A stretch of 11,472 bases of DNA from Sulfurovum sp. bin170 (GTDB taxonomy: Bacteria > Campylobacterota > Campylobacteria > Campylobacterales > Sulfurovaceae), in contig NZ_JAACKB010000097.1 of assembly GCF_010892395.1 (NCBI RefSeq), positions 1 to 11,472 of the forward strand. Direction: 5' to 3'. The stretch's first letter is position 1. Each line of letters begins with the position of its first letter. Made by a program: the position numbers and the translations under genes. The notes below the pieces were generated by a model. The model was given only the letters and a program-made list of their open reading frames with translations. It had not been told where the DNA came from and made no database searches. Below, piece by piece: positions 1 through 11,472 of the stretch.

Positions 1-3000
1 ACAGATAAACAGCTCTTTGCTGGTGCAATCTATGGAGACCACTACTACATCTCAGGACCTGGGGTTAGCTATGATAAGATTTTTAAAATCAACATCAATG
101 ATAAAAATGTAACAGATTTGAATCTAAGTGAACCTATCTCTCTGCTAGATTTTGCTTTTACTCCTGAGGGGGCATACCTTCATGGAATTGTTGATGGTGG
201 AAGATTGGTAAAGATAGATACTGCCACAGGAGCCGTAACCTTTATTGGTGACCCTCATATTGGGTATCAGTTTGACTCTACTTTTTCTGATAATCTAGGA
301 CGATTTTTTGCCAACGATAGCAAAGGAAATGGTTTTTTTGAGTTTGATTTGAAAAAGGGAGAAAAGCTATTTTTGTCAGATTCTCAACCAGCTGACTATA
401 ATGATGGAACCAACTGTCTTGAAGCAAACCTCACATTTATGGATTATGGGGATGCACCAGCAAGTTATGGGTCTGCCAGACACAATATCGCCAACGGTGT
501 CTATCTTGGATATAAAGTTGACCATGATATAGGTGATTATGATACTCTATATGCTGATGGTGATGATAAAAATGGTGTTGATGATGAGGATGGTATAACC
601 ATGATGGATGGGAGTGATATAAATGGTAGCACTTTTGTACCTGGAGAGACTCATCAAATCAAAGTCACAATTAGTAAAGAGGCTTATCTAAAGATTTGGA
701 TAAATTTGGATGAGAGCAATAACCACTTCTCTGATGCGGCTGACTTGGTCTATAAATCCGAAACTCCTTTGAGTGCAGGTACAAATATAGTTGATATTAC
801 GCTCCCTTCAAATATTGACGAGGGACGAATTACCTATCTCCGAGCCAGAGTCTCCTCAAACAAAAATCTAAATCCAGTAGGACTTATAACGGATGGTGAA
901 GTTGAGGATTATGTGGTCAGGGTTGGTTACCAAAGGATTCAAGGAAGATTCAATATTCAACGAACCAATACCCTAAAAGATAGTAAAGATTTTGCACTCT
1001 ATACACAGATAGTGGGTCGAGATTTCAACTATCATGTGGTCTTTTATGATGAGTATCTAACAGCAGAAGAGGAGCTAGAGAAAGTTCCACTAAAGATAGA
1101 GCTAATGGATGAGGATAATCCTACCACTCCTCTATATACAACATATCTCTACTACTACTCACTAGAGTACCCAACTAGTCGAATCCTTGTTATGAACAAC
1201 AGTGATTTGGATAATCTACCAGCTATAAAAAAAGCGATTTTCAACATCACTTATGCAGTAGATTCCAATGGCAATATCATACGAGAGCAGTGTGACGGGG
1301 ATATTAAAACATGTTTCGATACGCTAATGGCTTCAGGTTGGATAGATAGAGTAGACCCTGCACGAGATAAGTTTGCTATTCGTCCAGAGAGTTTCTATAT
1401 GAGTATTGGTGATGGTACAGAAGAGATAAAAAATAGCATAGACCCTAACAATAATATAACTCTTGCATCAGGATATGATGAGTATAACTTAACCTTTATC
1501 GCTACACAACATAATACGCGTTTACCCTCAAATGGATACCATAAAAATTTTAAAACAGACTTTGATTTTAATAGCAGTGGGACAAGCAGTTGTGCCAATA
1601 CCAGTCCGATTGAGGAGGATATTAACTTTACGGATGGTTCTTATAACAATCCTAACTTTAGCCACGATGATGTGGGTCGATACACTTTAACTATAGCAGA
1701 TGACAGCAACTGGACAGCCGTTGACCAAAATAGTGGAGATTGTGAAGATAATCAATCTTTTACATCACCAAAAATAGAAGGGACAGAAGATGAAAATTTA
1801 AAAGATTATAATATCCCATCAGGATGTAACATTAAGCTCCAACTAAATCCACTGAACTTGACATTCCAACCTGACCACTTTGATGTTAATCTCACTCTGA
1901 ATAACCTACCAAATAGTAGTCACCCAGATTTTCTCTATATGAGTGAACTCAATACAACTTATAACCGTGTAGCTATCCAGTTTTTGGGAGATATTATAGC
2001 TCAAACAGAAGATAATAAAACCACAAAAAACTTCACAGCAGGGTGTATGGCAACCAATCTACTTTTGGATTTGAATGCGACTACACTCTCTGTGAATGAG
2101 ATAGATAAAAGTATAAATATAGATGGAATTATAACAACTATAAATGGTACAGATGTTGATTTTACAAGACTGATTAGATTTAATCCAAATTCAACTAGTA
2201 GCTCATTTGATTTAAATAGAACCTTAGATAGAGTAGATAGTGAAGGTAGTATAATTCAGATTGGTGCTGATAAATTTTTAGATGAAAATAACGGTACACT
2301 TCATCTTGATATGAGATATAATCTCAACAAACATCTAACACAACTCATCAATCCTGTTGAGGTATCATTTCATGGAATAGAGGTCAACTCAACAGAGGCA
2401 AACTCAATATCTCATAATGTAGATAGCCATATCCCAAAAGGAAATAGAGCATTTACAGACAATCGAAAAAACTTCTATTTTGCTAGAGTTGTGCCAGATA
2501 TGCCAAGTTATCCAATAATCAATACAACTGTATCACGAGTTCAAAGACATCCACTAAATGTAGATATATTTTGTGATACAAATCTAACTAACTACTGTAG
2601 AGATAGAGAAGTTCTTAACAATACAAATCTAACAAGCACAACCAGAGAGGCTGAAGGAGGATATGTCTCGATTAATCATAATGAAGAGATGGATGGAAAT
2701 GTGACAAACTTGGTAGATACCCCTGATATAATGACTCCTAGAGAGAACCTAATAGATGCAACCGATAGAAATATAACATTTAGCAATGGTGAAAATAATC
2801 TAATTGATGCTAGAATTAATGACTGTAATGTTTCCCAATCTACTACTGTCACTATTACAACAACCCCTGAACTTCGATTTGAGCCATCTGAATATATAGT
2901 TAACTGTACAGATAACAATGCTTCACAATGGACTGGTGTTGGTCAAACAGGTAATATTTTGAATGTTAAACCTAAGATTAATTCATCACATAAAATAGAC

Positions 3001-3006
3001 TGGTAA
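1..3006 (+). CDS. Giant secreted adhesin-like protein, MshQ-like, 5' end missing
   Basis: The frame is open from base 1, so the gene starts upstream; the TTG at 118 lies inside the reading frame and is not needed as a start. The visible 1001 residues begin with propeller-like repeats (about 1-145: lines such as LVKIDTATGAVTFIGD, ending in NDGTNCLEAN). A GEVED domain follows (about 148-305), with FMDYGDAPASYG, an acidic DGDDKNGVDDEDG stretch and the diagnostic GEVEDYVV. The remaining ~695 residues are beta-rich and Asn/Asp/Thr-rich, with landmarks YTQIVGRDFNY, KFAIRPESF, GRYTLTIADDSNWTAVD, KFLDENNGT and FYFARVV. The protein ends in KIDW. The C-terminal region is clearly homologous to residues ~1317-1990 of the next gene. 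GEVED and propeller modules are typical of secreted adhesive proteins; position beside prepilins suggests an MshQ-like pilus-linked surface protein. Exact ligand and function are unknown. Confidence 0.85.
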   Translation, partial: TDKQLFAGAIYGDHYYISGPGVSYDKIFKININDKNVTDLNLSEPISLLDFAFTPEGAYLHGIVDGGRLVKIDTATGAVTFIGDPHIGYQFDSTFSDNLGRFFANDSKGNGFFEFDLKKGEKLFLSDSQPADYNDGTNCLEANLTFMDYGDAPASYGSARHNIANGVYLGYKVDHDIGDYDTLYADGDDKNGVDDEDGITMMDGSDINGSTFVPGETHQIKVTISKEAYLKIWINLDESNNHFSDAADLVYKSETPLSAGTNIVDITLPSNIDEGRITYLRARVSSNKNLNPVGLITDGEVEDYVVRVGYQRIQGRFNIQRTNTLKDSKDFALYTQIVGRDFNYHVVFYDEYLTAEEELEKVPLKIELMDEDNPTTPLYTTYLYYYSLEYPTSRILVMNNSDLDNLPAIKKAIFNITYAVDSNGNIIREQCDGDIKTCFDTLMASGWIDRVDPARDKFAIRPESFYMSIGDGTEEIKNSIDPNNNITLASGYDEYNLTFIATQHNTRLPSNGYHKNFKTDFDFNSSGTSSCANTSPIEEDINFTDGSYNNPNFSHDDVGRYTLTIADDSNWTAVDQNSGDCEDNQSFTSPKIEGTEDENLKDYNIPSGCNIKLQLNPLNLTFQPDHFDVNLTLNNLPNSSHPDFLYMSELNTTYNRVAIQFLGDIIAQTEDNKTTKNFTAGCMATNLLLDLNATTLSVNEIDKSINIDGIITTINGTDVDFTRLIRFNPNSTSSSFDLNRTLDRVDSEGSIIQIGADKFLDENNGTLHLDMRYNLNKHLTQLINPVEVSFHGIEVNSTEANSISHNVDSHIPKGNRAFTDNRKNFYFARVVPDMPSYPIINTTVSRVQRHPLNVDIFCDTNLTNYCRDREVLNNTNLTSTTREAEGGYVSINHNEEMDGNVTNLVDTPDIMTPRENLIDATDRNITFSNGENNLIDARINDCNVSQSTTVTITTTPELRFEPSEYIVNCTDNNASQWTGVGQTGNILNVKPKINSSHKIDW

Positions 3007-3016
3007 CAGCTAAAAA

Positions 3017-3037
3017 CTTAATTAAATATTAATTTAG
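3017..3037. repeat. AT-only inverted repeat after the first adhesin gene
   Basis: Arms 3017-3025 and 3029-3037 pair in 8 of 9 positions around a 3-nt loop. It starts 11 bases after the stop of the upstream gene. It could be a weak 3'-end structure, but apart from the terminal C-G pair it is only A/T and no clear T-run follows, so a terminator role is doubtful. Confidence 0.3.
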
Positions 3038-3052
3038 TTATTAAATTTAAAA

Positions 3053-3058
3053 TATAAT
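3053..3058 (+). promoter_or_regulatory. Candidate -10 element for the second adhesin gene
   Basis: A perfect TATAAT lies in a strongly AT-rich stretch, 67 bases before the start codon at 3126. No good -35 box is seen at the usual distance (3030-3035 reads taattt). Campylobacterota housekeeping promoters often have a strong -10 and only AT-rich sequence in place of a -35, so this fits, but TATAAT is easily met by chance in such AT-rich DNA. Confidence 0.4.
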
Positions 3059-3090
3059 TTAAACCTTATCTTATGGAATTTGTACTATCA

Positions 3091-3115
3091 TTTTATTAAA
3101 GTATTTTTAATAAAA
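3091..3115. repeat. Perfect 10-bp AT inverted repeat overlapping the ribosome binding site
   Basis: Arms 3091-3100 (TTTTATTAAA) and 3106-3115 (TTTAATAAAA) are perfect inverse complements around a 5-nt loop. The right arm overlaps the first four A's of the AAAAAGGA ribosome binding site at 3112-3119. It could be an operator-like site or a weak RNA hairpin affecting translation of the 1990-residue protein. An A/T palindrome in AT-rich DNA can also arise by chance. Confidence 0.4.
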
Positions 3116-3119
3116 AGGA
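3112..3119 (+). promoter_or_regulatory. Ribosome binding site of the 1990-residue adhesin gene
   Basis: AAAAAGGA ends 6 bases before the ATG at 3126, an ordinary spacing, and a signal peptide begins at that ATG. This fixes the start. Confidence 0.75.
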
Positions 3120-3125
3120 TTAATA

Positions 3126-6100
3126 ATGAAATATGTATTTAAATTAATTTTCATATTAATATTGGGTCTCTTTGGCTCATCAGCAGTAGCAAATGAGACC
3201 CTCGGAGAGTGTCAAGGTGTTTTTAAAGGTGTACTTAACACTCATGACGATGAGGGAGGGATTACACTACAACCCAATGTAGAAATATATGGAACCATTG
3301 ACCATAAAGTGACAACCAAAAGTTTAAAAACTAAAAAGAGTACCAAGTGTGATGGAGAGACATGTTTAAAGACCGATACCATCGTAGATAAGTTTGATTT
3401 TAAAGTTTTATTGGGTGATGGTTCTGATGGAAAATTTGGTGGGAGAAATCACTCTTTTTCAAATCTATTGTCAATGTTCAATTCTATCTCTAGTATCAAA
3501 GAGTACAGCTCTTTTTCATTAGGGGCTCATAGTGAATTCACCATAAAAGGAGACCATATCATCAAAGTTCAAAATAGTTTTGAGCTTAAAACACACTCTA
3601 CTCTAAATATTGAAGGTGATGTTACAATTTATGCTAAAAGTTTTGATATGGGTTCAAAATCAAATATTAATATAGATGGTAGTCTAACTATAATTACTAC
3701 TGGAAGTGTAAATATACAACCACAAGGTATTAATAATAGTACCATAAAGATACTCTCCAAAGGAGATATAACCATAAAACCCAATGGTGATTTGAGGGTT
3801 TTAGCCTATGCAGATGGTGAGGTTACTGTTCATCCTGGTGGTAGAATTTTTGGTTCTATAACAGCAGACTCTATTACTCTTCTGCCTGATGCCATTATCA
3901 ATTATGATGAGGGGCTTGTGAGTGATAACTGTGAGGAAGAGGCTCCTCCTCAAGAGACTCCTCCTCAACTGATAGCTGATTATCGTTTTGATGAGTGTAA
4001 CTGGAATGGAACAGCAGGTGAAGTTAAAGATAGTAGTGGTAACACTTTTGACGGAATAGCTAAAAGTGGTGCGAACACATCTGATGATAATATCACCAAT
4101 AGAGGTGGTAAATTTAGACAGAGTAGTGGTCAATATGTTCAAATAGATGGATTTGATGATATTTTTGGTACATCTAGTTCTGCCTTTAGTATTACAACTT
4201 GGATAAAACCTACAACTCTATCAACAGCTAAAACCAATCATAATACAAAAAATACATTTATGGCAAAAGCTTCTGATAGATACAATGACAATTTTGAGAT
4301 AGGGGTAAATCCTAATGGGACTATCCATGTGTATATTGACACTATAACCAAAAATACCTATGCAGATTTTGGGGTAGCAGGAGACATTACAATAGGTAGT
4401 TGGCACTTTGTTGCTGTTAGCTATAAGAGTGGAGTCGTTACCGTACAGATAGATGATAAGAACTACACCAACACCTCAAAATGGAGTGGTGCTACTAACT
4501 TAGACACAGCAGTAAACAGTCCTTTGACCATAGGTGCTTCTATACATATCAATAACTATTTCGATGGATTTATAGATGAAGTGAAAGTGTTTAAAACAGC
4601 TATGAGTAGAACTCAAATCTCAACGATTCGTAACCATGAACAGAATAATAAAAACTGGGATGGAAGCACAAGAGATGGGGTTGATTGTAGAGTCGAGCCT
4701 ATCGGTTGTCTTCAGACTGCATGGATGTTTCAAAACAAACCAACAGATATCAATGCTCTAAATCTAACCAATGGGGAGATGGTTCCTGTGAAAGCAGATA
4801 TTTCACTAGATAATATTAATGCAGTGGGGTACAATAAAAAAGATGATTATTTTTGGGGATATAACCATTCACAAGGCAATGGAACTATTAGCCGAATAGG
4901 GATGGATAGCAGTGGAGATTGGATTAGTGAGGATTTTGTAGTAGATGGATTAATTGGATTCTCATCTTATGTGGGAGACATTGACAGTAATGGTCATCTC
5001 TATTTGAAAGAGGGTGGTAGTAGTACGCGTACGGTTGTTATTGATTTAGACCCTAATTCACCTAACTACCTTAAAAAGATAAGAGATTTTAATCTAAACT
5101 TTTCATTAAATGTTGCCGATTGGGGATTTAATGCAAGAGACGGTATGCTTTATGCTGTTAATAATGGAAGTGGTACTAAATATCTCTATAAGATAGACCC
5201 ATCAACTGGTCATAAACTTTCAGGGCAAGATACCAAATTAACAGGCAGTCGAGGTTTTGGTGCGAGTTTCTTTGATGCCAATGGTTTCTATTATGTGTAT
5301 GATAATGGTAGTGGAAATATCTATAGAATAGATGTAGCCAACACTCCAGAGGCTATACTTTTTGCCACAGGAGGGAAAGTAAGCCTTAATGATGGTGCGA
5401 TGTGTACCGATGCTATTTTTCAGTTTGATTTTGGTGATTTGCCAGAGAACTATGCAACCAAACTTGAGAAAAGTGGTGCAAGACACTCACTACCAACTTA
5501 TGGTGAGCCTAAAGTATATTTGGGGGAAGGTGTTGACCATGAGAATGATGGTGAGCCTTCTGATGATGCCAATTTGGACAGTTATGATGATGGTGTTCAG
5601 TTGAATAATACACCTCTACAAGAGGCAACTATCAATGCAGGAGTTGAAAACACCTTCAGTATCACTACACATGATGAGGGGTATGGGTATCTAAATGCGT
5701 GGATTGACTGGAATGGTGATGGAGATTTTGAGGATAGTGGTGAGCAGATTGCACACAATGTTGATGGAACTAGCGGTGAAATCACGCTTACTGTAGTTGC
5801 TCCTAGTAGTGCTGATGATATTATCACCTATGCACGATTTAGATATAGTTATCAGCAGAATATAGAGTCAACAGGGATAGCAGATGATGGTGAGGTTGAG
5901 GATTACAAGATAAACTTTAAAGGGAATTTGGAGCCATTCAGTTGTGATGAGAAACTTTATCTATCTAACCAAATAGATAGTGACAGTAGTAAAGTCACAT
6001 GGCTAGAGAGTTTTTATGCTACAACACCGAACTATACAACGATAGGAGATGGATTTGGAACTGATGGTGAAGGGTACAATGCCCTTGGATACAATCTAAA

Positions 6101-9098
6101 AGATAACTTTATCTATGCACTCTATGGCAATCAACTTCTAAAAATCGATAAAGGTGCAAATATCAAAAACTTGGGAGCTATTGCAGAGCTACCTGATACT
6201 CAACTCTATGCAGGTGGGTTTGATAGAGATGGCTTCTACTATGTTAGTGGTGATGGTAATAGTAGTAATATCATCTACAAAATTGATATTGAACAGAAAG
6301 AGGTGATTAGCACTATTAATCTCTCTTCATCTGTTCGATTTTTGGATATGACTATTGATACTACAGGAGAGTACTTCTATACGATGTTGCTCAAAGATGA
6401 AAATGCTAGTGGTGAACTTAAAAATGATAAATTTGCAAAGATAAAAATCAGTGATGGAACAGTTACCACTATTGGAGATAGTCATGAGAGTATGAGTTCA
6501 TATATCTCTCTTATCTATAGTGATGCTAGTGATAAAACTCTTGCGATTGCTAATGGGGGTGGAATATATGAGATAAACCCATCAGATGGTCAAGCGTACT
6601 GGTTAATGCCTACAGAGAGTTTAAGTAACTATAATGATGGAGCGAGTTGTCCTGATGCTAACTTTACACTGCCTCCTAGACCTTTAATTCTCTCTATCAA
6701 TGATGTCTCTAAAATCGAAGGGAATCTGGGGATAACCAATTTTGATTTTACAGTATCGATTGATGCTGATTTACCATCTCTCTCAAGAGGGATGCCTAGT
6801 GTGTTCTACTATAAAGTCATAGATGGAGATGGCAAAATCGTTGCTCCTGCTAAGAGTGCGGATAATGATTTTAAAGCAGAGAGTGGATTTGCTATGAAGA
6901 TGAATATATTCTCTACCGAAAGAACACACACAATTTCCGTACCTGTTTATGGTGATACCAAAGTGGAGGCAGATGAAGAGTTCTTTGTAGAGATATATTT
7001 TTCTAAATCTTTCTCATCAGACTTGTGTATGATTGGTAAAAGTAGAGGAGTCGGACTAATTTTCAATGATGATATGAAGCTAAAAGTGGAGAGAACCAAT
7101 AGTGATGAAGATACCGAACAGATAAAAAAAGAGTCACTTTATACTCAAATATCAGGTCGAGATTTTGACTACTCTATTGTATCTTATGCTGAAGATGACA
7201 GTTCCAATAAAATTGAAGACATCACTTTTAAGATAGAACTTATTGATAATAATAGTACTCTTCCTAATGATGTTATCTACAGAGGATACAGACATATAGA
7301 GTCAGGAAGTCGAGTTGATGTTATTGATTCTGATGATTTGAAAATAGCACGAGCTACGAGAGATGCTAGTTTTAAGGTCTCCTATCTTAAAGATGCAAAT
7401 GGTTCAATACTTCATGGTAACTATACAAACAACTACAGTGAAACTAAAGAGAGTAATGGAAATAGTGAAGTATCAACTGATGCTAGTGATAATTTTGCCT
7501 TGCGACCTGCTAGTTATCGGATGGAGTTAGGAGATAGTAACAGAACCTATCGTATAAATGATACAGAAAATAGCACTCCTCTAAACTTGGTAGCAGAGCA
7601 TGATTATAGATTAAGAGTAAAAGCTACTAAATACAATAGTGAAGAGAGTGCTTCAAAATATAGGCAGACTACTACAGATGAGCTTAATGTATCTCTTCTA
7701 TTTAAAGATAACTCAGAGTGTAGTGATACAAATAGCCCCAAACTCTCTTATAAATTTGATAATGGTCAACTTAGCAAAGTTTTAAATCATGGAAATACAG
7801 GTAGATACTCTATACAGATAGAGGATAGTAACTGGACAGCTGTTGATATGGATTTTGATCCATTCTTAGCAGGATGTATCGCCAATGACTCTACTATCTC
7901 TGAAAATTCTAATGAGAAATCGGGATGTAATATTAGCTCAAATTTTGACACTACACATCATGATATGGAACTTAATTTTCAACCTTTTAAATTTGATATG
8001 AGTAATATAAATCTCTCAAATATTAATGGCAATGGAAAAGATTACCTCTATATGAGTGATTTGAATCTATCCAAAGCTATGGGTGTACGGCTAAGTAGCA
8101 CTATTAGAGCAGAGGGTGAAGAGGGTGGAGAGTTGAGCAACTTTACCAATAGCTGTATAGATGATACCATTTCACTCTCTTTGGGTTTGAAGTTCTCTTT
8201 CTTATCAGATTTAAACTCATCACCAATTACTAGAAGCAACTATATTCCACCTAGGTCACTCTCTGGAGAGGTTCTAACCCCACAACAGATAGTAGAGTTT
8301 AATGGTGAAAATAACGATAATGTTACAATGATGAGCGATATAAATATTAGTAAAAAGTTCTTGGATGAGAACAATGGAACCATGACTATTGATGTCCTCT
8401 ATAATATGGAAAAACTTTTTAGAGAGCCTACTAACCCTATAAAGGTAAATTTTATCTCTCTAGATTTAAATACAACCAATTTAGAAGCCAAAATGGATGG
8501 AGAGGATAACACGCCTACAGGAGTAGGAAGCATAGATGAGAATAGAACATTCTATTTTGCTAGAGTTGTATCAGAAGTAAAATATTATCCAGCAACAGAA
8601 AAAAAGATTAAAAAAACACCTCTGTTTGTAGAGATATTTTGTAAATTTCCAGATAATATCAGTTGGTGTAAAGATACAATGAATCTAGGTATCATAGGAG
8701 AAGATATAGGTCAAAAAACTGAGGGTGGTTGGTATCTAGCCCATAAGCATGATACGGCTACAGATGGTGGTGTAATTAGACTTGTGAGCGATAATCCAAC
8801 AGAGATAGGCACAAACCATACAGAAAACATACCACCTTTCGTAAATGGAAAAATTGATGGTATTGTAACTAGATATATTCCCAATTCAGCTCTTAATGGA
8901 GAGATAAAAGCCGAAATAGCTATAGATACAGATGTCTGGTTAAGATTTAATAAAAGAGCCATTGTAGGTATGCCATTGGGTACATCATCATACTCGGTTA
9001 TCCTCAAAGGAATATCATCTACATCAGGTGTAGGTGACGGTGGAAATGGGATAGAGAGTGTAAAAAAAGTTGAACATAATGGTAAAATGACATGGTAG
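3126..9098 (+). CDS. Giant multidomain secreted adhesin, MshQ-like (LamG, GEVED, Calx-beta)
   Basis: The 1990-residue protein starts with a clear Sec signal peptide (residues 1-22, hydrophobic core FKLIFILILGLFG, cleavage after AVA). Residues ~133-262 are short beta-helix-like repeats (SEFTIKGD, STLNIEGDVTIYAKS, GSVNIQPQ). A PPQETPPQ linker leads to a LamG/concanavalin-type domain (~282-505, ADYRFDE to FIDEVKVFKTAMS). Then come propeller-like repeats (~527-764), a GEVED domain (~767-930, FDFGDLPENYA to GEVEDY at 922-927), a second propeller (~935-1180), and a Calx-beta-like domain (~1187-1316: ISIND/EG start, EADEEFFVEI, FNDD end). Residues ~1317-1990 are the region shared with the preceding gene, ending in KMTW. 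LamG plus a long beta-rich C-terminus next to prepilins recalls MshQ of the MSHA pilus, but I do not see the usual MshQ C-terminal ending. It is probably a surface adhesin; the ligand cannot be predicted. Confidence 0.88.
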   Translation: MKYVFKLIFILILGLFGSSAVANETLGECQGVFKGVLNTHDDEGGITLQPNVEIYGTIDHKVTTKSLKTKKSTKCDGETCLKTDTIVDKFDFKVLLGDGSDGKFGGRNHSFSNLLSMFNSISSIKEYSSFSLGAHSEFTIKGDHIIKVQNSFELKTHSTLNIEGDVTIYAKSFDMGSKSNINIDGSLTIITTGSVNIQPQGINNSTIKILSKGDITIKPNGDLRVLAYADGEVTVHPGGRIFGSITADSITLLPDAIINYDEGLVSDNCEEEAPPQETPPQLIADYRFDECNWNGTAGEVKDSSGNTFDGIAKSGANTSDDNITNRGGKFRQSSGQYVQIDGFDDIFGTSSSAFSITTWIKPTTLSTAKTNHNTKNTFMAKASDRYNDNFEIGVNPNGTIHVYIDTITKNTYADFGVAGDITIGSWHFVAVSYKSGVVTVQIDDKNYTNTSKWSGATNLDTAVNSPLTIGASIHINNYFDGFIDEVKVFKTAMSRTQISTIRNHEQNNKNWDGSTRDGVDCRVEPIGCLQTAWMFQNKPTDINALNLTNGEMVPVKADISLDNINAVGYNKKDDYFWGYNHSQGNGTISRIGMDSSGDWISEDFVVDGLIGFSSYVGDIDSNGHLYLKEGGSSTRTVVIDLDPNSPNYLKKIRDFNLNFSLNVADWGFNARDGMLYAVNNGSGTKYLYKIDPSTGHKLSGQDTKLTGSRGFGASFFDANGFYYVYDNGSGNIYRIDVANTPEAILFATGGKVSLNDGAMCTDAIFQFDFGDLPENYATKLEKSGARHSLPTYGEPKVYLGEGVDHENDGEPSDDANLDSYDDGVQLNNTPLQEATINAGVENTFSITTHDEGYGYLNAWIDWNGDGDFEDSGEQIAHNVDGTSGEITLTVVAPSSADDIITYARFRYSYQQNIESTGIADDGEVEDYKINFKGNLEPFSCDEKLYLSNQIDSDSSKVTWLESFYATTPNYTTIGDGFGTDGEGYNALGYNLKDNFIYALYGNQLLKIDKGANIKNLGAIAELPDTQLYAGGFDRDGFYYVSGDGNSSNIIYKIDIEQKEVISTINLSSSVRFLDMTIDTTGEYFYTMLLKDENASGELKNDKFAKIKISDGTVTTIGDSHESMSSYISLIYSDASDKTLAIANGGGIYEINPSDGQAYWLMPTESLSNYNDGASCPDANFTLPPRPLILSINDVSKIEGNLGITNFDFTVSIDADLPSLSRGMPSVFYYKVIDGDGKIVAPAKSADNDFKAESGFAMKMNIFSTERTHTISVPVYGDTKVEADEEFFVEIYFSKSFSSDLCMIGKSRGVGLIFNDDMKLKVERTNSDEDTEQIKKESLYTQISGRDFDYSIVSYAEDDSSNKIEDITFKIELIDNNSTLPNDVIYRGYRHIESGSRVDVIDSDDLKIARATRDASFKVSYLKDANGSILHGNYTNNYSETKESNGNSEVSTDASDNFALRPASYRMELGDSNRTYRINDTENSTPLNLVAEHDYRLRVKATKYNSEESASKYRQTTTDELNVSLLFKDNSECSDTNSPKLSYKFDNGQLSKVLNHGNTGRYSIQIEDSNWTAVDMDFDPFLAGCIANDSTISENSNEKSGCNISSNFDTTHHDMELNFQPFKFDMSNINLSNINGNGKDYLYMSDLNLSKAMGVRLSSTIRAEGEEGGELSNFTNSCIDDTISLSLGLKFSFLSDLNSSPITRSNYIPPRSLSGEVLTPQQIVEFNGENNDNVTMMSDINISKKFLDENNGTMTIDVLYNMEKLFREPTNPIKVNFISLDLNTTNLEAKMDGEDNTPTGVGSIDENRTFYFARVVSEVKYYPATEKKIKKTPLFVEIFCKFPDNISWCKDTMNLGIIGEDIGQKTEGGWYLAHKHDTATDGGVIRLVSDNPTEIGTNHTENIPPFVNGKIDGIVTRYIPNSALNGEIKAEIAIDTDVWLRFNKRAIVGMPLGTSSYSVILKGISSTSGVGDGGNGIESVKKVEHNGKMTW

Positions 9099-9116
9099 AT
9101 AAGAGAGATAATATTT

Positions 9117-9166
9117 GGAAACGGAGAGTTTACTCCCGAACAACGGAGGCGAAGCCATCCGATTCC
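9117..9166. repeat. Structured tandem repeat, copy 1
   Basis: This 50-nt unit is about 56% GC, well above its flanks. Outer arms 9117-9125 and 9158-9166 pair in 8 of 9 positions. Inside are two small hairpins: GAGT/ACTC (9126-9129 with 9132-9135) and GGC-GAA-GCC (9148-9156), giving a three-stem layout. Both copies are preceded by TTT. Relative to copy 2, the first inner stem has changed on both sides (GAGT/ACTC against GACT/AGTC), a compensatory change that supports selection on structure. The element family is not recognised. Confidence 0.75.
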
Positions 9167-9197
9167 GAGTGTTACAAGAAGGACTCTTTGGAATCGG
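9159..9197. promoter_or_regulatory. Alternative long hairpin joining the two repeat copies
   Basis: The 3' arm of copy 1 (CCGATTCC, 9159-9166) is a perfect inverse complement of the 5' arm of copy 2 (GGAATCGG, 9190-9197). The stem continues with GAGT (9167-9170) against ACTC (9183-9186), with a TTT bulge. The 12-nt loop holds most of the AAGAAGGA site. This fold excludes the separate folding of copies 1 and 2. No T-run follows, so it is not a classical terminator. Confidence 0.5.
9176..9183 (+). promoter_or_regulatory. Candidate Shine-Dalgarno for the first prepilin, between the repeat copies
   Basis: AAGAAGGA is the best ribosome binding site upstream of the first prepilin, but it lies 58 bases before the ATG at 9242. 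If copy 2 of the repeat (9190-9240) folds as a unit, only about 8 unpaired bases remain between the site and the ATG. It also lies 4 bases before an in-frame TTG at 9188, which would give a 25-residue prepilin leader. Confidence 0.4.
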
Positions 9198-9240
9198 AGA
9201 CTTTAGTCCCGAACATAACGAGGCTAAAGCCATCGGTTCC
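9190..9240. repeat. Structured tandem repeat, copy 2, abutting the prepilin start
   Basis: This 51-nt unit (about 51% GC) aligns with copy 1 and sits one base before the ATG at 9242. Outer arms 9190-9197 and 9233-9240 pair at all 8 positions, two of them G-T, which would be G-U wobbles in RNA. Inner stems are GACT/AGTC (9199-9202 with 9205-9208) and GGCT/AGCC (9222-9225 with 9228-9231). Copies 1 and 2 start 73 nt apart, so any reading frame reads them differently; the repeat is therefore conserved as DNA or RNA and not as protein. Confidence 0.75.
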
Positions 9241-9241
9241 T

Positions 9242-9994
9242 ATGAAAAAGAAGAGACGAGGTATCGCTATGGTGGAGCTTATCTTCGCATTAGTGATTAT
9301 GGGAATTGTACTTATGTCTGCTCCTATGCTAATACAGCAATCCATTAAGAGTGGAAATGTAGCCTTGCAACAAGAGGCGATATCTGCGGCTGCCTCTCAG
9401 ACAGCCATTGTACTATCTATGCATTGGGATGAGCATAACAATAGTAATCTGGCAGGTTCCTCACCAATGTTAGATGCCAATAGAGCACCTTTTGATTTTA
9501 ATGTAACTGATGCACCACTAGGGTTGATAGGTGTATCAGGGAGAAAGAGTTCAAAAGATGGTCAAACTTTTATTCCATCTGCTGTTTTTGGTATGGATGA
9601 GTCGGACAATCCCGAATATAATGAGTCTGACTTTACTGATTTTGATGATGTTGATGACTATCATGACACTAATTTTGGCTTAATTGTCTTCAACACAGAA
9701 GAGACCTCTGCTGATGTTGGTGACTATGTTGATATTGATATTAATATGAGTACAGAGATAAACTATGCAGAGGATAGAGTAGATACAGGAGAGACAGATG
9801 ACCTAAATGGTACAACTATAAATCTCACTAATAAAATCAATAATACAGAGATAGGAGTAATAAGCAATATTAAATTTATTCGTGTAAATCTAACCTCGGA
9901 TAGTGGAATAGAAGAGCTAGAGAAAAATATCACTATGGAAGCGTTCTCATGCAATATCGGAACATCACTTCCCCAAGGAGAGATGAAACCATGA
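9242..9994 (+). CDS. Type IV prepilin-like protein, minor pilin (MshD/PilV-like position)
   Basis: From the ATG at 9242 the product is 250 residues: leader MKKKRRG, then the prepilin segment IAMVELIFALVIMGIVLM with Gly at -1 and the conserved Glu at +5, so a prepilin peptidase should cut after residue 7. The hydrophobic helix would hold it in the inner membrane before assembly. The rest is an acidic Asp/Asn-rich globular region with few Cys. The frame is open back to an ATG at 9092 that overlaps the previous stop, but this would add 50 residues encoded by the structured repeats, unusual for a prepilin; a TTG at 9188 is another option. No normal ribosome binding site precedes 9242. It shares ATGA with the next gene. 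By order (prepilin, PilW/MshO-like, PilX/MshP-like) it resembles MshD, though sequence alone only proves a prepilin-type protein. Confidence 0.8.
   Translation: MKKKRRGIAMVELIFALVIMGIVLMSAPMLIQQSIKSGNVALQQEAISAAASQTAIVLSMHWDEHNNSNLAGSSPMLDANRAPFDFNVTDAPLGLIGVSGRKSSKDGQTFIPSAVFGMDESDNPEYNESDFTDFDDVDDYHDTNFGLIVFNTEETSADVGDYVDIDINMSTEINYAEDRVDTGETDDLNGTTINLTNKINNTEIGVISNIKFIRVNLTSDSGIEELEKNITMEAFSCNIGTSLPQGEMKP
9975..9980 (+). promoter_or_regulatory. Ribosome binding site of the second prepilin
   Basis: AAGGAG lies 10 bases before the ATG at 9991, inside the end of the preceding gene. It favours 9991 over the upstream in-frame ATG at 9949, which would put 14 extra residues before the prepilin leader. 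Confidence 0.75.
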
Positions 9995-10980
9995 GAAAAT
10001 CAAAAAAAGCATTTAGTCTAATAGAGGTTGTGTTTGTACTGGTTATTCTTGGTATTGTAGCCTCTATATCATCACAGATTATAGTGCAAGTATATGAAAA
10101 CTATATCACACAAAAAGCTCTATACAACACCACTACCAAAACGGAACTGGTTGCCAATCAGATTGTCAATCGTCTATCTTATGTTATAGATGGAACAACC
10201 ATTGCAAAAAACCCAAATAGTTCATTTGCATATACAGCAGATAGTGAAAATACCGACTTAAACCCAAATGGTAATTGGACTAAACTAGAAAAAATTCCAC
10301 TAAATGATAATAACTTTACAACCATAGAGTGGATTGGGTATGACAACGATAGCTTCTCTGCTGGTGCAACACCCTACTGGAGTGGTATTGCAAATTATGA
10401 GACAGCCTCAAGAAACAGTTTTGAGACCCCTGGTTCTGATTTGACTAGTGCTAGTGAGATTATCAATAACCTATCTAATAACGATGTTGATTTAACAGAT
10501 ACTAAAGAGTTACCTGCTATTATTTTTATAGAAAATAGCAAACAGTACCAAACAGATCTGGATTATAGTCCCGCTTGTATGGGATTAGTAGATGAGGACA
10601 ATACCAGCTGTATATTTCGTGTGTCGATGATTGACAATACCAACTTCTCATTTCCTGATGGTCTACCTAAGATAGTAACAGAACGCTATAAACTAGCTTG
10701 GTCTGCTTATGCGTTGGTTCCAGAAGACCCTGATGGAGATAGTAATGGTGATGGAGTTGATGATGATGGTCTATATGACCTTGTACTCTACTCTAACTAC
10801 CAACCATGGAACAATGAGAACTATGAAGATGATGGAAGTAAAAGCTTATTAATACGAAATGTCTCTGTTTTCAAATTTACTGAAAATGGTGGAGTGATAC
10901 AACTAAAACTATGTGCCACAGAAAATATAGGTCAAAATTTCAATATTAGTAGCTGTAAAGAGAAAGCGATTATACGATGA
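9991..10980 (+). CDS. Type IV prepilin-like protein, MshO/PilW-like minor pilin
   Basis: The 329-residue product begins MRKSKKA and continues FSLIEVVFVLVILGIVASI, a classic prepilin N-terminus with Glu at +5; residue -1 is Ala instead of Gly, as is common in Campylobacterota prepilins. The globular part is large for a pilin, which suits a minor or tip subunit. Residues 246-259 (DPDGDSNGDGVDDD) look like a calcium-binding loop of the DxDxDG type. Cys pairs at 196/207 and 308/322 could form disulfides in the periplasm. It overlaps the neighbouring genes by ATGA at both ends (9991-9994 and 10977-10980), so the three prepilins are probably translated together. Placement before a PilX/MshP-like gene supports a MshO/PilW-like role; the family assignment is from architecture and order only. 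Confidence 0.82.
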   Translation: MRKSKKAFSLIEVVFVLVILGIVASISSQIIVQVYENYITQKALYNTTTKTELVANQIVNRLSYVIDGTTIAKNPNSSFAYTADSENTDLNPNGNWTKLEKIPLNDNNFTTIEWIGYDNDSFSAGATPYWSGIANYETASRNSFETPGSDLTSASEIINNLSNNDVDLTDTKELPAIIFIENSKQYQTDLDYSPACMGLVDEDNTSCIFRVSMIDNTNFSFPDGLPKIVTERYKLAWSAYALVPEDPDGDSNGDGVDDDGLYDLVLYSNYQPWNNENYEDDGSKSLLIRNVSVFKFTENGGVIQLKLCATENIGQNFNISSCKEKAIIR

Positions 10981-11471
10981 TAAATCCAAAACAGAAAAAA
11001 GCTTTTTCAATGGTAACTGCCATTTTTGTTATCTTTGTAATGTCATCGGTTACGATGCTCATTATGAATATCACAGGGAAAACAGTCAAAGCAACAACTC
11101 ATCAGTACCAAAAAGAACAGGCTCAACTATTGGCAAGAAGCTATACGGAGTTGGCTATTTTATATGTTATACATTATGATAGAACGGCTACACCTGATTG
11201 TCTCCAAACCATTACAGACCACTTTGGAGGGGCTGGTGCAAATGGATATGACATAAGAATAAATATTCAATATATTGGAAATAGCACTCTTTTAAATGGC
11301 TGTGGAACAACCATAGCACCTTGGGCAGCTACTGATGTAGGATTTAACAGCTCCATATCAATAGTTATAGATACCTTCGTAACCTACAAAGATTTTGATG
11401 ACCCAAGTGCCTTGGTAGCCAATGGAGATAGAAATATCACCTTCCATCGTAGAACTTTACAAAAACTTTAA
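10977..11471 (+). CDS. Small prepilin-like protein, MshP/PilX-like
   Basis: The 164-residue product has leader MINPKQKKA, then FSMVTAIFVIFVMSSVTMLIMN, a prepilin-like hydrophobic helix. The residue at +5 is Thr instead of Glu. Loss of Glu5 is typical of the tip-type subunits (GspK, and PilX/MshP-like proteins), which fits its place after a MshO/PilW-like gene. The region after the helix (KEQAQLLARSYTELAI) should be an amphipathic alpha-1 extension, followed by a small C-terminal domain with two Cys that may bond. It starts within the stop of the previous gene (ATGA at 10977), with only a weak purine-rich stretch at 10957-10966, so translational coupling is likely. It ends with TAA at 11469-11471, so the gene is complete; the downstream terminator, if any, is outside the window. 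Confidence 0.78.
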   Translation: MINPKQKKAFSMVTAIFVIFVMSSVTMLIMNITGKTVKATTHQYQKEQAQLLARSYTELAILYVIHYDRTATPDCLQTITDHFGGAGANGYDIRINIQYIGNSTLLNGCGTTIAPWAATDVGFNSSISIVIDTFVTYKDFDDPSALVANGDRNITFHRRTLQKL

Positions 11472-11472
11472 T

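Follow-up and report, generated by a model that had tools for sequence, protein, structure and literature searches.

Why should a long open reading frame at the edge of a Sulfurovum contig be crowded with the motif D/E-X-N-X-S/T, the extended sequon that Campylobacter jejuni PglB uses on periplasmic and surface proteins? The window, i.e. the whole stretch of DNA analysed here, comprises 11,472 nt of Sulfurovum sp. bin170 (GCF_010892395.1, contig NZ_JAACKB010000097.1, positions 1..11,472, forward strand). A first-pass annotation had read the first protein as a possible heavily N-glycosylated adhesin and suggested a recount against shuffled sequences and a search for pglB. The window was organized as follows.

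1..3006, + strand: ORF A, 1001 aa, its 5' end cut by the start of the contig
1..438, + strand: segment of A aligned with the DUF6923 region of B (A-B alignment), 3 sequons against 0.16 expected
685..918, + strand: GEVED domain of A (residues 229-306; PF20009, 37 bits)
931..3003, + strand: sequon-dense C-terminal region of A (residues 311-1001), 17 D/E-X-N-X-S/T against 1.87 expected
3126..9098, + strand: ORF B, 1990 aa, with LamG, GEVED and DUF6923, followed by a homologue of the C-terminal domain of A
7074..9095, + strand: C-terminal domain of B (residues 1317-1990), 11 sequons against 1.63 expected
9092..9994, + strand: ORF C, pseudopilin-like, N_methyl at residues 52-77, 6 sequons against 0.6
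9949..10980, + strand: ORF D, pseudopilin-like, N_methyl, 2 sequons against 0.7 (not significant)
10977..11471, + strand: ORF E, 164 aa, N-terminus hydrophobic by eye, 1 sequon against 0.1 (not significant)

PF07963 (N_methyl) matched both ORFs C and D and, given its internal position in C, the true start of this gene is probably near base 9242. ORF E had no family match. A scan of the A-B intergenic region for promoters and terminators found nothing above chance on the + strand. DUF6923 was matched in 3 of 14 homologues of A and not in A itself. The C-terminal domain of A reached no family cut-off in Pfam or NCBIfam, and its last residue is a Trp that was invariant across the alignments made. 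Members of these alignments displayed weak and scattered family matches only. An AlphaFold model of A (7 sequences) had a mean pLDDT of 42 and was set aside. The seven full-length homologues of A that were read measured 1688-1851 aa and began, by eye, with a signal-peptide-like start, a part that lies outside the window in the case of A; the three that were scanned contained Calx-beta, DUF6923 and GEVED in addition to the C-terminal domain. A and B appear to be large surface, adhesin-like proteins, the role of A as an adhesin being suggested by its domains and neighbours, and A itself is presumably exported.

Sequons were counted as [DE]-X-N-X-[ST], X not being Pro, with the reversed motif S/T-X-N-X-D/E as control. 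ORF A contained 21 of them in 1001 residues, one more than the 20 announced by the first-pass annotation, which had missed DKNVT at residue 34; its estimate of about two reversed motifs proved exact. Since A is composed of 10.5% Asn and 14.9% acidic residues, the count might reflect mere composition. Yet 21 was never reached in 2000 residue shuffles (2.3 expected), 2000 dipeptide-preserving shuffles (2.4), 2000 local shuffles over 50 residues (2.4) or 1000 codon-pair-preserving shuffles (2.2, maximum 7), and the reversed motif stood at expectation, so that compositional chance can practically be dismissed. The five other frames of the same DNA gave 0, 0, 1, 0 and 0 sequons, and the motif with any other residue in place of the central Asn occurred at most twice. 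In the C-terminal part of A, the density amounted to one sequon per 41 residues (17 in 691). ORF B as a whole displayed 16 sequons against 3.8 expected.

The excess extended well beyond the window. Each of the seven full-length homologues of A contained 15-28 sequons (3.4-4.1 expected), and one from another family (G032, with an STT3 match) reached 31 against 2.86, together with two pseudopilins at 8 against 0.35 and 7 against 0.43. Twelve homologues of ORF C totalled 61 sequons against 5.0 and twelve of ORF D 26 against 4.0; three of ORF E had 2 against 0.6. Among 51 database homologues, chosen by five-residue words in common with B and overlapping with the genus genomes, so that independence is incomplete, the last 674 residues held 648 sequons against 77.5 (reversed motif, 77) and the remainder of the proteins 432 against 156.4 (reversed motif, 153). 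A contig scan of other genomes with A alone as query retrieved no relative. With the homologue alignment, at least 79 loci were obtained; among the matches listed, 7 covered the full C-terminal domain (Campylobacterota or the same genus set) and 72 mainly the GEVED part. In 74 GEVED ORFs taken from loci with no mention of Campylobacterota in their titles, 109 sequons were counted against 96.7, i.e. no excess. One of these ORFs, in locus L280, was an outlier with 6 against 1.2.

When A and 18 homologues were pooled, the fraction of N-X-S/T sites with D/E at -2 was 0.55 against a background of 0.13, and acidic residues were below background at the eight other offsets tested. In A alone, D/E occupied -2 in 21/37 N-X-S/T sites and in 13/68 other Asn. 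Pro was encountered at -1 or +1 in 7/311 sites with an acidic -2 residue against 40/259 non-acidic ones. The 304 sites of the 19 pooled sequences were spread over 79 alignment columns, 30 of which were used by a single sequence; sequon density is thus maintained although the positions turn over. The acid confined to -2, the rarity of Pro and the turnover at constant density all fit a selected PglB acceptor.

These data also bear on the view that D-X-N-X-S/T has a structural role in the fold, for example in loops that bind calcium or form turns in Calx-beta/GEVED-like adhesins. The proteins are indeed rich in Asp and Asn, their homologues carry Calx-beta domains, and some dense homologues occurred in genomes where no PglB was detected (see below). 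Yet the sites are not fixed in place, the Pro rarity is restricted to sites with an acidic -2 residue, and the pseudopilins, which have a different fold, share the excess. N-X-D/E, which would be expected in calcium loops, was scarce in A (8 against 15), though not in B (28 against 22.7), and the GEVED ORFs from outside Campylobacterota had no excess, a comparison that concerns GEVED and not the C-terminal domain itself. We consider a structural origin of the motif very unlikely.

A pglB gene, for which the first-pass annotation had suggested a search, was found on another contig (C216) as a 236-aa C-terminal piece (about the C-terminal third) of a gene cut by the contig end. This piece matched STT3-PglB_core PF21436 (104.9 bits, cut-off 23), STT3_PglB_C PF18527 (28.9 bits, cut-off 26.5) and NF050801 (152.4 bits over positions 466-713). 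The whole-protein cut-off of the latter is 1300 bits, and the whole PglB of G015 (648.5) falls below it as does the piece. The surrounding cluster was syntenic with that of G015, where PglB is whole, and included an aminotransferase and a 4,6-dehydratase, respectively 72% and 68% identical to their G015 counterparts, as well as a sugar-phosphate transferase (36%). For these genes we take the names pglE, pglF and pglC from Campylobacter by analogy; none of the NCBIfam equivalogs so named was matched. The contig ends before the N-terminal part (PF02516) and the WWDYG motif, invariant in six aligned relatives, and neither was found elsewhere in this 83%-complete assembly. A Pfam STT3 search of the genome was accordingly empty, as this model is confined to the N-terminal part, which the contig end has cut off; it is an assembly-edge artefact and does not mean that PglB is absent. 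A predicted PglB is encoded by the genome itself.

Across the order, domain and enzyme tended to occur together: out of 298 genomes, 157 had both the domain and an STT3 match, 27 the domain only, 61 STT3 only and 53 neither (odds ratio of 5, uncorrected for relatedness). The domain-only class includes the genome studied here, and STT3 goes undetected in cut genes such as its own. The domain was read in 21 of the 157 genomes with both (12 + 9 in two rounds of picking) and in 9 of the 27 without STT3 (8 + 1), picks that lean to better matches. All 21 of the former were dense, the lowest ratio being about 7. Among the latter, 7 were dense, G074 was intermediate (5 against 0.8) and only G314 lacked an excess (1 against 1.0; 9-21 sequons in eight genus mates with STT3). 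With NF050801, G227 gave a clear PglB piece, G194 a weak one and G314 a score of 11 bits, i.e. no clear PglB, and this search detected none in G161, G303, G055, G071 and G074 (G157 was outside the search). Within the genus, G014, G010 and G007 had dense homologues and no PglB found, as had G013 for one of its two C-terminal pieces, and some congeners with STT3 were weakly enriched (G016, 6 against 1.7; G023, 9 against 2.3; G024, 5 against 1.74; G022, 8 against 2.04). A rule of no sequons without PglB thus does not hold cleanly.

Genomes in which the homologue is dense and PglB went undetected, together with the two STT3 matches found in each of six congeners, could also point to another N-glycosylating enzyme. 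This might be a second oligosaccharyltransferase, a diverged one, or a cytoplasmic N-glycosyltransferase resembling HMW1C. The -2 acid argues otherwise, as it is reported to mark most PglB homologues tested (PMC4894442), and the sites of HMW1 are, with a single exception, described as N-X-S/T (PMC2877744). An alternative enzyme therefore has little probability.

The proteome-wide signal was consistent with exported acceptors and was concentrated in few proteins. Proteins were classified as secreted, membrane or cytoplasmic by hydropathy rules, not by a trained predictor. In the sampled proteins of G009 and G023, the secreted class had 90 sequons against 31.6 and the cytoplasmic class 25 against 37.7; in the genome under study (40 of 462 contigs), these values were 17 against 8.1 and 10 against 14.8, and its membrane class showed no excess (4 against 6.2). 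Without the five proteins of largest excess, G009 and G023 retained 31 against 19.1 (secreted) and 14 against 13.5 (membrane), and the own sample 8 against 6.0. The membrane class of G009 and G023 was dominated by one 5766-aa frame, and two shifted control motifs were also raised in it (55 against 31.3 and 51 against 32.6). G039, which has STT3, displayed no proteome-wide excess (22 against 20.2) in sampled stretches (20 of 20 kb each, as for G031).

The reading of the first-pass annotation thus gains support from the excess, the PglB piece, the -2 and Pro rules and the turnover, the adhesive role being deduced. Judging from sequence, the motifs were very probably selected as acceptor sites for PglB, and the adhesin-like C-terminal domain that bears them has no name in Pfam; N-glycosylation is putative. 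A and B would be surface, adhesin-like proteins of a Sulfurovum-like member of Campylobacterota, encoded next to pseudopilin genes. Their C-terminal domain, like pseudopilin C, would have been selected for many extended sequons as acceptors of periplasmic PglB. The pgl-type cluster would make a lipid-linked oligosaccharide which, after export of the protein, PglB would transfer to many of these Asn, yielding a heavily N-glycosylated product. Number of sites, and not place, would mainly be selected, so that the glycans probably form a coat, which might keep the protein soluble, shield it from proteases, stabilise it or provide a surface chemistry suited to attachment. Occupancy, glycan structure, adhesion and the coat function are what we infer. 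It is an even bet whether this represents an order-wide class of Campylobacterota surface proteins, with a C-terminal domain selected for glycan number over position and a sugar coat made by the oligosaccharyltransferase, of archaeal S-layer-like density and kept or lost with PglB.

Even for C. jejuni, the reason for protein N-glycosylation in bacteria is said to be poorly defined (PMC6478998). A free-living Campylobacterota family with a visibly selected sequon number offers a clear place for testing the role of the glycan, and supplies natural acceptors with multiple sites. A signature of sequon selection was reported for eukaryotic secretory proteins (PMC5562741); titles and abstract openings of part of the literature matches mentioned no bacterial counterpart.

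Large adhesins are encoded beside minor pilins in MSHA-type operons. The present locus may resemble type IV pilus/MSHA-type operons, as two very large proteins precede N_methyl pseudopilin genes, an order kept in L067 and L070. It differs by a C-terminal domain that reached no Pfam cut-off, and this order was not seen beside A in four other loci (L068, L071, L072 and L073). HMW1C is cytoplasmic, and neither HMW1C nor AglB is known to require an acidic residue at -2. A does not conform to plain N-X-S/T without -2 acid, the HMW1 type, given its 21/37 sites with D/E. Haemophilus influenzae HMW1 is comparable in being a large adhesin that is N-glycosylated at many sites, 31 of them mapped, but HMW1C is reported to add hexoses to N-X-S/T without a lipid donor (PMC2877744). 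The Sulfolobus acidocaldarius S-layer (AglB), with one glycan reported per 30-40 residues (PMC4287180), has a density close to that of the C-terminal part of A, but is an archaeal S-layer. There is also a close likeness to the general PglB N-glycosylation of Campylobacterota, with its extended sequon, -2 acid and exclusion of Pro, and with PglB accompanied by an aminotransferase, a 4,6-dehydratase and a sugar-phosphate transferase; PglB of Sulfurovum lithotrophicum has itself been studied (Mills et al. 2016, cited in PMC6025236). In Campylobacter hepaticus, 9/33 glycoproteins are reported to have at least two sites, the named examples having three sequons (PMC9816155). Unlike such reported PglB targets with few sites, the full-length homologues of A each carry their 15-28 sequons.

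ORF A and its homologues carry an excess of N-glycosylation sequons (D/E-X-N-X-S/T, X not Pro) that obeys a position rule and turns over between proteins, and the same assembly encodes a piece of PglB within a gene cluster. The frames concerned are:

1-3006, forward strand: ORF A, 1001 residues, 5' end cut by the contig start
3126-9098, forward strand: ORF B, 1990 residues
9092-9994, forward strand: ORF C, pseudopilin-like
9949-10980, forward strand: ORF D, pseudopilin-like
10977-11471, forward strand: ORF E, 164 residues

The first-pass annotation had counted 20 sequons in A. The excess proved real and the count one too low, 21 being present in 1001 residues (DKNVT at residue 34 had been overlooked); the reversed motif occurred twice, as stated there. 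These 21 sites exceeded all shuffles of A: means were 2.3-2.4 under residue, dipeptide-preserving and 50-residue local shuffles (at least 21 in 0 of 2000 each) and 2.2 under codon-pair-preserving ones (maximum 7, 21 reached in 0 of 1000). The remaining five reading frames of this DNA held 0 to 1 site, and swapping the central N for other residues gave at most 2. A similar excess was displayed by ORFs B (16 observed vs 3.8 expected from shuffles) and C (6 vs 0.6); that of D and E was not significant. The majority of the excess was C-terminal (A residues 311-1001, 17 vs 1.87; B residues 1317-1990, 11 vs 1.63), and B residues 501-960 were devoid of sequons.

In A and 18 homologues taken together, 0.55 of N-X-S/T sites had D/E at position -2, the background being 0.13, and at the eight other offsets tested D/E fell below background. 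It preceded 304 of 546 N-X-S/T sites in this way vs 210 of 1339 other Asn, and Pro stood at X in 7 of 311 acidic vs 40 of 259 non-acidic sites. The 304 sites were spread over 79 alignment columns, 30 of them used once, and conservation of the individual 21 sites of A ranged from 0 to 13 out of 16 full-length homologues. A wider set (15 sequences, 22-31% identical to that of the window) gave 182 sites in 78 columns, 39 used once. Judged from sequence, this signal looks like that of a PglB acceptor.

Matches to A were recorded in 30 of 34 genomes of the genus, and its C-terminal domain in 184 of 298 sampled genomes of the order. The 18 aligned homologues had 6-21 sites each, the weakest occurring in G016 (6 vs 1.7) and G023 (9 vs 2.3). 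Further partial homologues were found in G024 (5 vs 1.74) and G022 (8 vs 2.04), and short ones in G013 (2 vs 0.3 in 174 residues) and G001 (none in 67). The last 674 residues of 51 database homologues totalled 648 vs 77.5 (reversed motif 77), each protein reaching at least three times expectation; their remainder gave 432 vs 156.4 (reversed motif 153). Homologues of C (n=12), D (n=12) and E (n=3) displayed 61 vs 5.0, 26 vs 4.0 and 2 vs 0.6, respectively. Little excess was observed in 74 GEVED ORFs (109 vs 96.7) from 72 loci, among the matches listed, whose titles lacked Campylobacterota; the single outlier was at locus L280 (6 vs 1.2).

The window is an entire contig of a 462-contig assembly, 83% complete. 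A matched GEVED, and B matched LamG, DUF6923 and GEVED; no Pfam family was above cut-off in the C-terminal region of A. Calx-beta domains and DUF6923 were present in three scanned full-length A homologues, and full-length homologues had a signal-peptide-like N-terminus as judged by eye. Prepilin N_methyl motifs were found in C and D. The A-B-C-D-E order was conserved at loci L067 and L070; pseudopilin genes did not adjoin A in the stretches read of L068, L071, L072 and L073, and the A-B-pseudopilin order was not general among loci read. On domains and gene neighbours, A is thus a putative adhesin. Both A and B have a Trp directly before the stop (window 3001-3003 and 9093-9095), invariant across alignments of 14, 7 and 15 sequences, which is a possible sorting or outer-membrane signal.

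The genome samples comprised 20 stretches of G009 and G023, 40 bin170 contigs, and 20 stretches each of G039 and G031, with classes assigned by hydropathy rules. Secreted, membrane and cytoplasmic proteins gave 90 vs 31.6, 114 vs 31.8 and 25 vs 37.7 in G009 and G023, and 17 vs 8.1, 4 vs 6.2 and 10 vs 14.8 in bin170. The former excess was concentrated, since a single 5766-residue frame held 88 of the 114 membrane-class sites; minus the five largest-excess proteins, secreted and membrane classes gave 31 vs 19.1 and 14 vs 13.5, and two shifted control motifs were also elevated in the membrane class (55 vs 31.3 and 51 vs 32.6). Little or no excess appeared in the secreted class of G039, which matched STT3 (22 vs 20.2), and G031, which did not (26 vs 20.4). 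The 5766-residue frame (L172:3-17303, G009 contig C59), possibly a giant surface protein, displayed the largest excess observed (88 vs 16.6). An 857-residue frame on G009 contig C34 (L174:7342-9915), with a lipoprotein-like start by eye, had 19 vs 2.5.

STT3 (PF02516) was matched in 25 of 34 genus genomes, and that of bin170 had no match to it. Its contig C216 was matched by the C-terminal third of the G015 PglB, in a 236-residue open frame at the contig end that starts just past the WWDYG position, carries STT3-PglB_core and STT3_PglB_C domains and reached a score of 283 bits against a PglB profile of the genus (matches in 26 of 34 genomes). On domains and score, the pglB homologue that the first-pass annotation had asked for is thus encoded as a C-terminal piece; the catalytic motif was not seen in this assembly. 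Adjoining genes encode a sugar-phosphate transferase, an aminotransferase and a 4,6-dehydratase, putatively pglC, pglE and pglF by analogy, and the cluster also holds a KpsF-like isomerase, a UDP-sugar dehydrogenase and a galE-like gene. The sugar-phosphate transferase (L105, 6306-6902) was only 36% identical to its G015 counterpart and matched exopolysaccharide sugar transferases over their C-terminal half, so the sugar added first may not be the same. Six congeners (G006, G017, G018, G022, G042 and G048) had two STT3 matches each; some may be one gene split over two contigs, and others resemble an additional PglB that has diverged further.

In order genomes with STT3, all 21 domains read (21 of 157 genomes with both) were dense, the lowest ratio being about 7. 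Where the domain occurred with no STT3 match, seven of nine read (9 of 27) were dense; G074 was intermediate (5 vs 0.8) and G314 had no excess (locus L312, 1 vs 1.0; 9-21 sites in eight STT3-positive genus mates). L312 was the only order homologue read in this state, and G314 has no clear PglB, which is suggestive of a natural loss, as one case and not proof. PglB pieces were found in G227 and, weakly, G194; a model search of all of these nine genomes but G157 found none in the dense G161, G303, G055 and G071. Within the genus, G014, G007 and G010 were dense with no PglB found, likewise G002 and G012; pglF-like pieces occurred in G002 (79% identity), G012 (76%) and G010 (58%). G013, also with no PglB found, had one dense C-terminal piece (7 vs 1.0), another with 2 vs 0.3, and 3 vs 2.8 in the N-terminal part of a B-like frame. 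For some dense genomes, the missing PglB is likely an assembly gap, as in bin170.

A would be exported and would receive glycan from PglB in the periplasm; many of its sequons are predicted to be occupied, and the glycans might act as a coat on a surface adhesin. An acid at -2 is reported to be preferred by most active PglB homologues tested (PMC4894442), and known Campylobacter targets have few sites each (PMC9816155), unlike the sequon-dense A and its homologues. Densities comparable to that of the sequons of A are reported for HMW1, where 31 sites have been mapped (PMC2877744), and for the S-layer of Sulfolobus acidocaldarius, which carries one per 30-40 residues (PMC4287180); both use other enzymes. 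The system appears to pair an enzyme of a familiar kind with substrates that are unusual for it.
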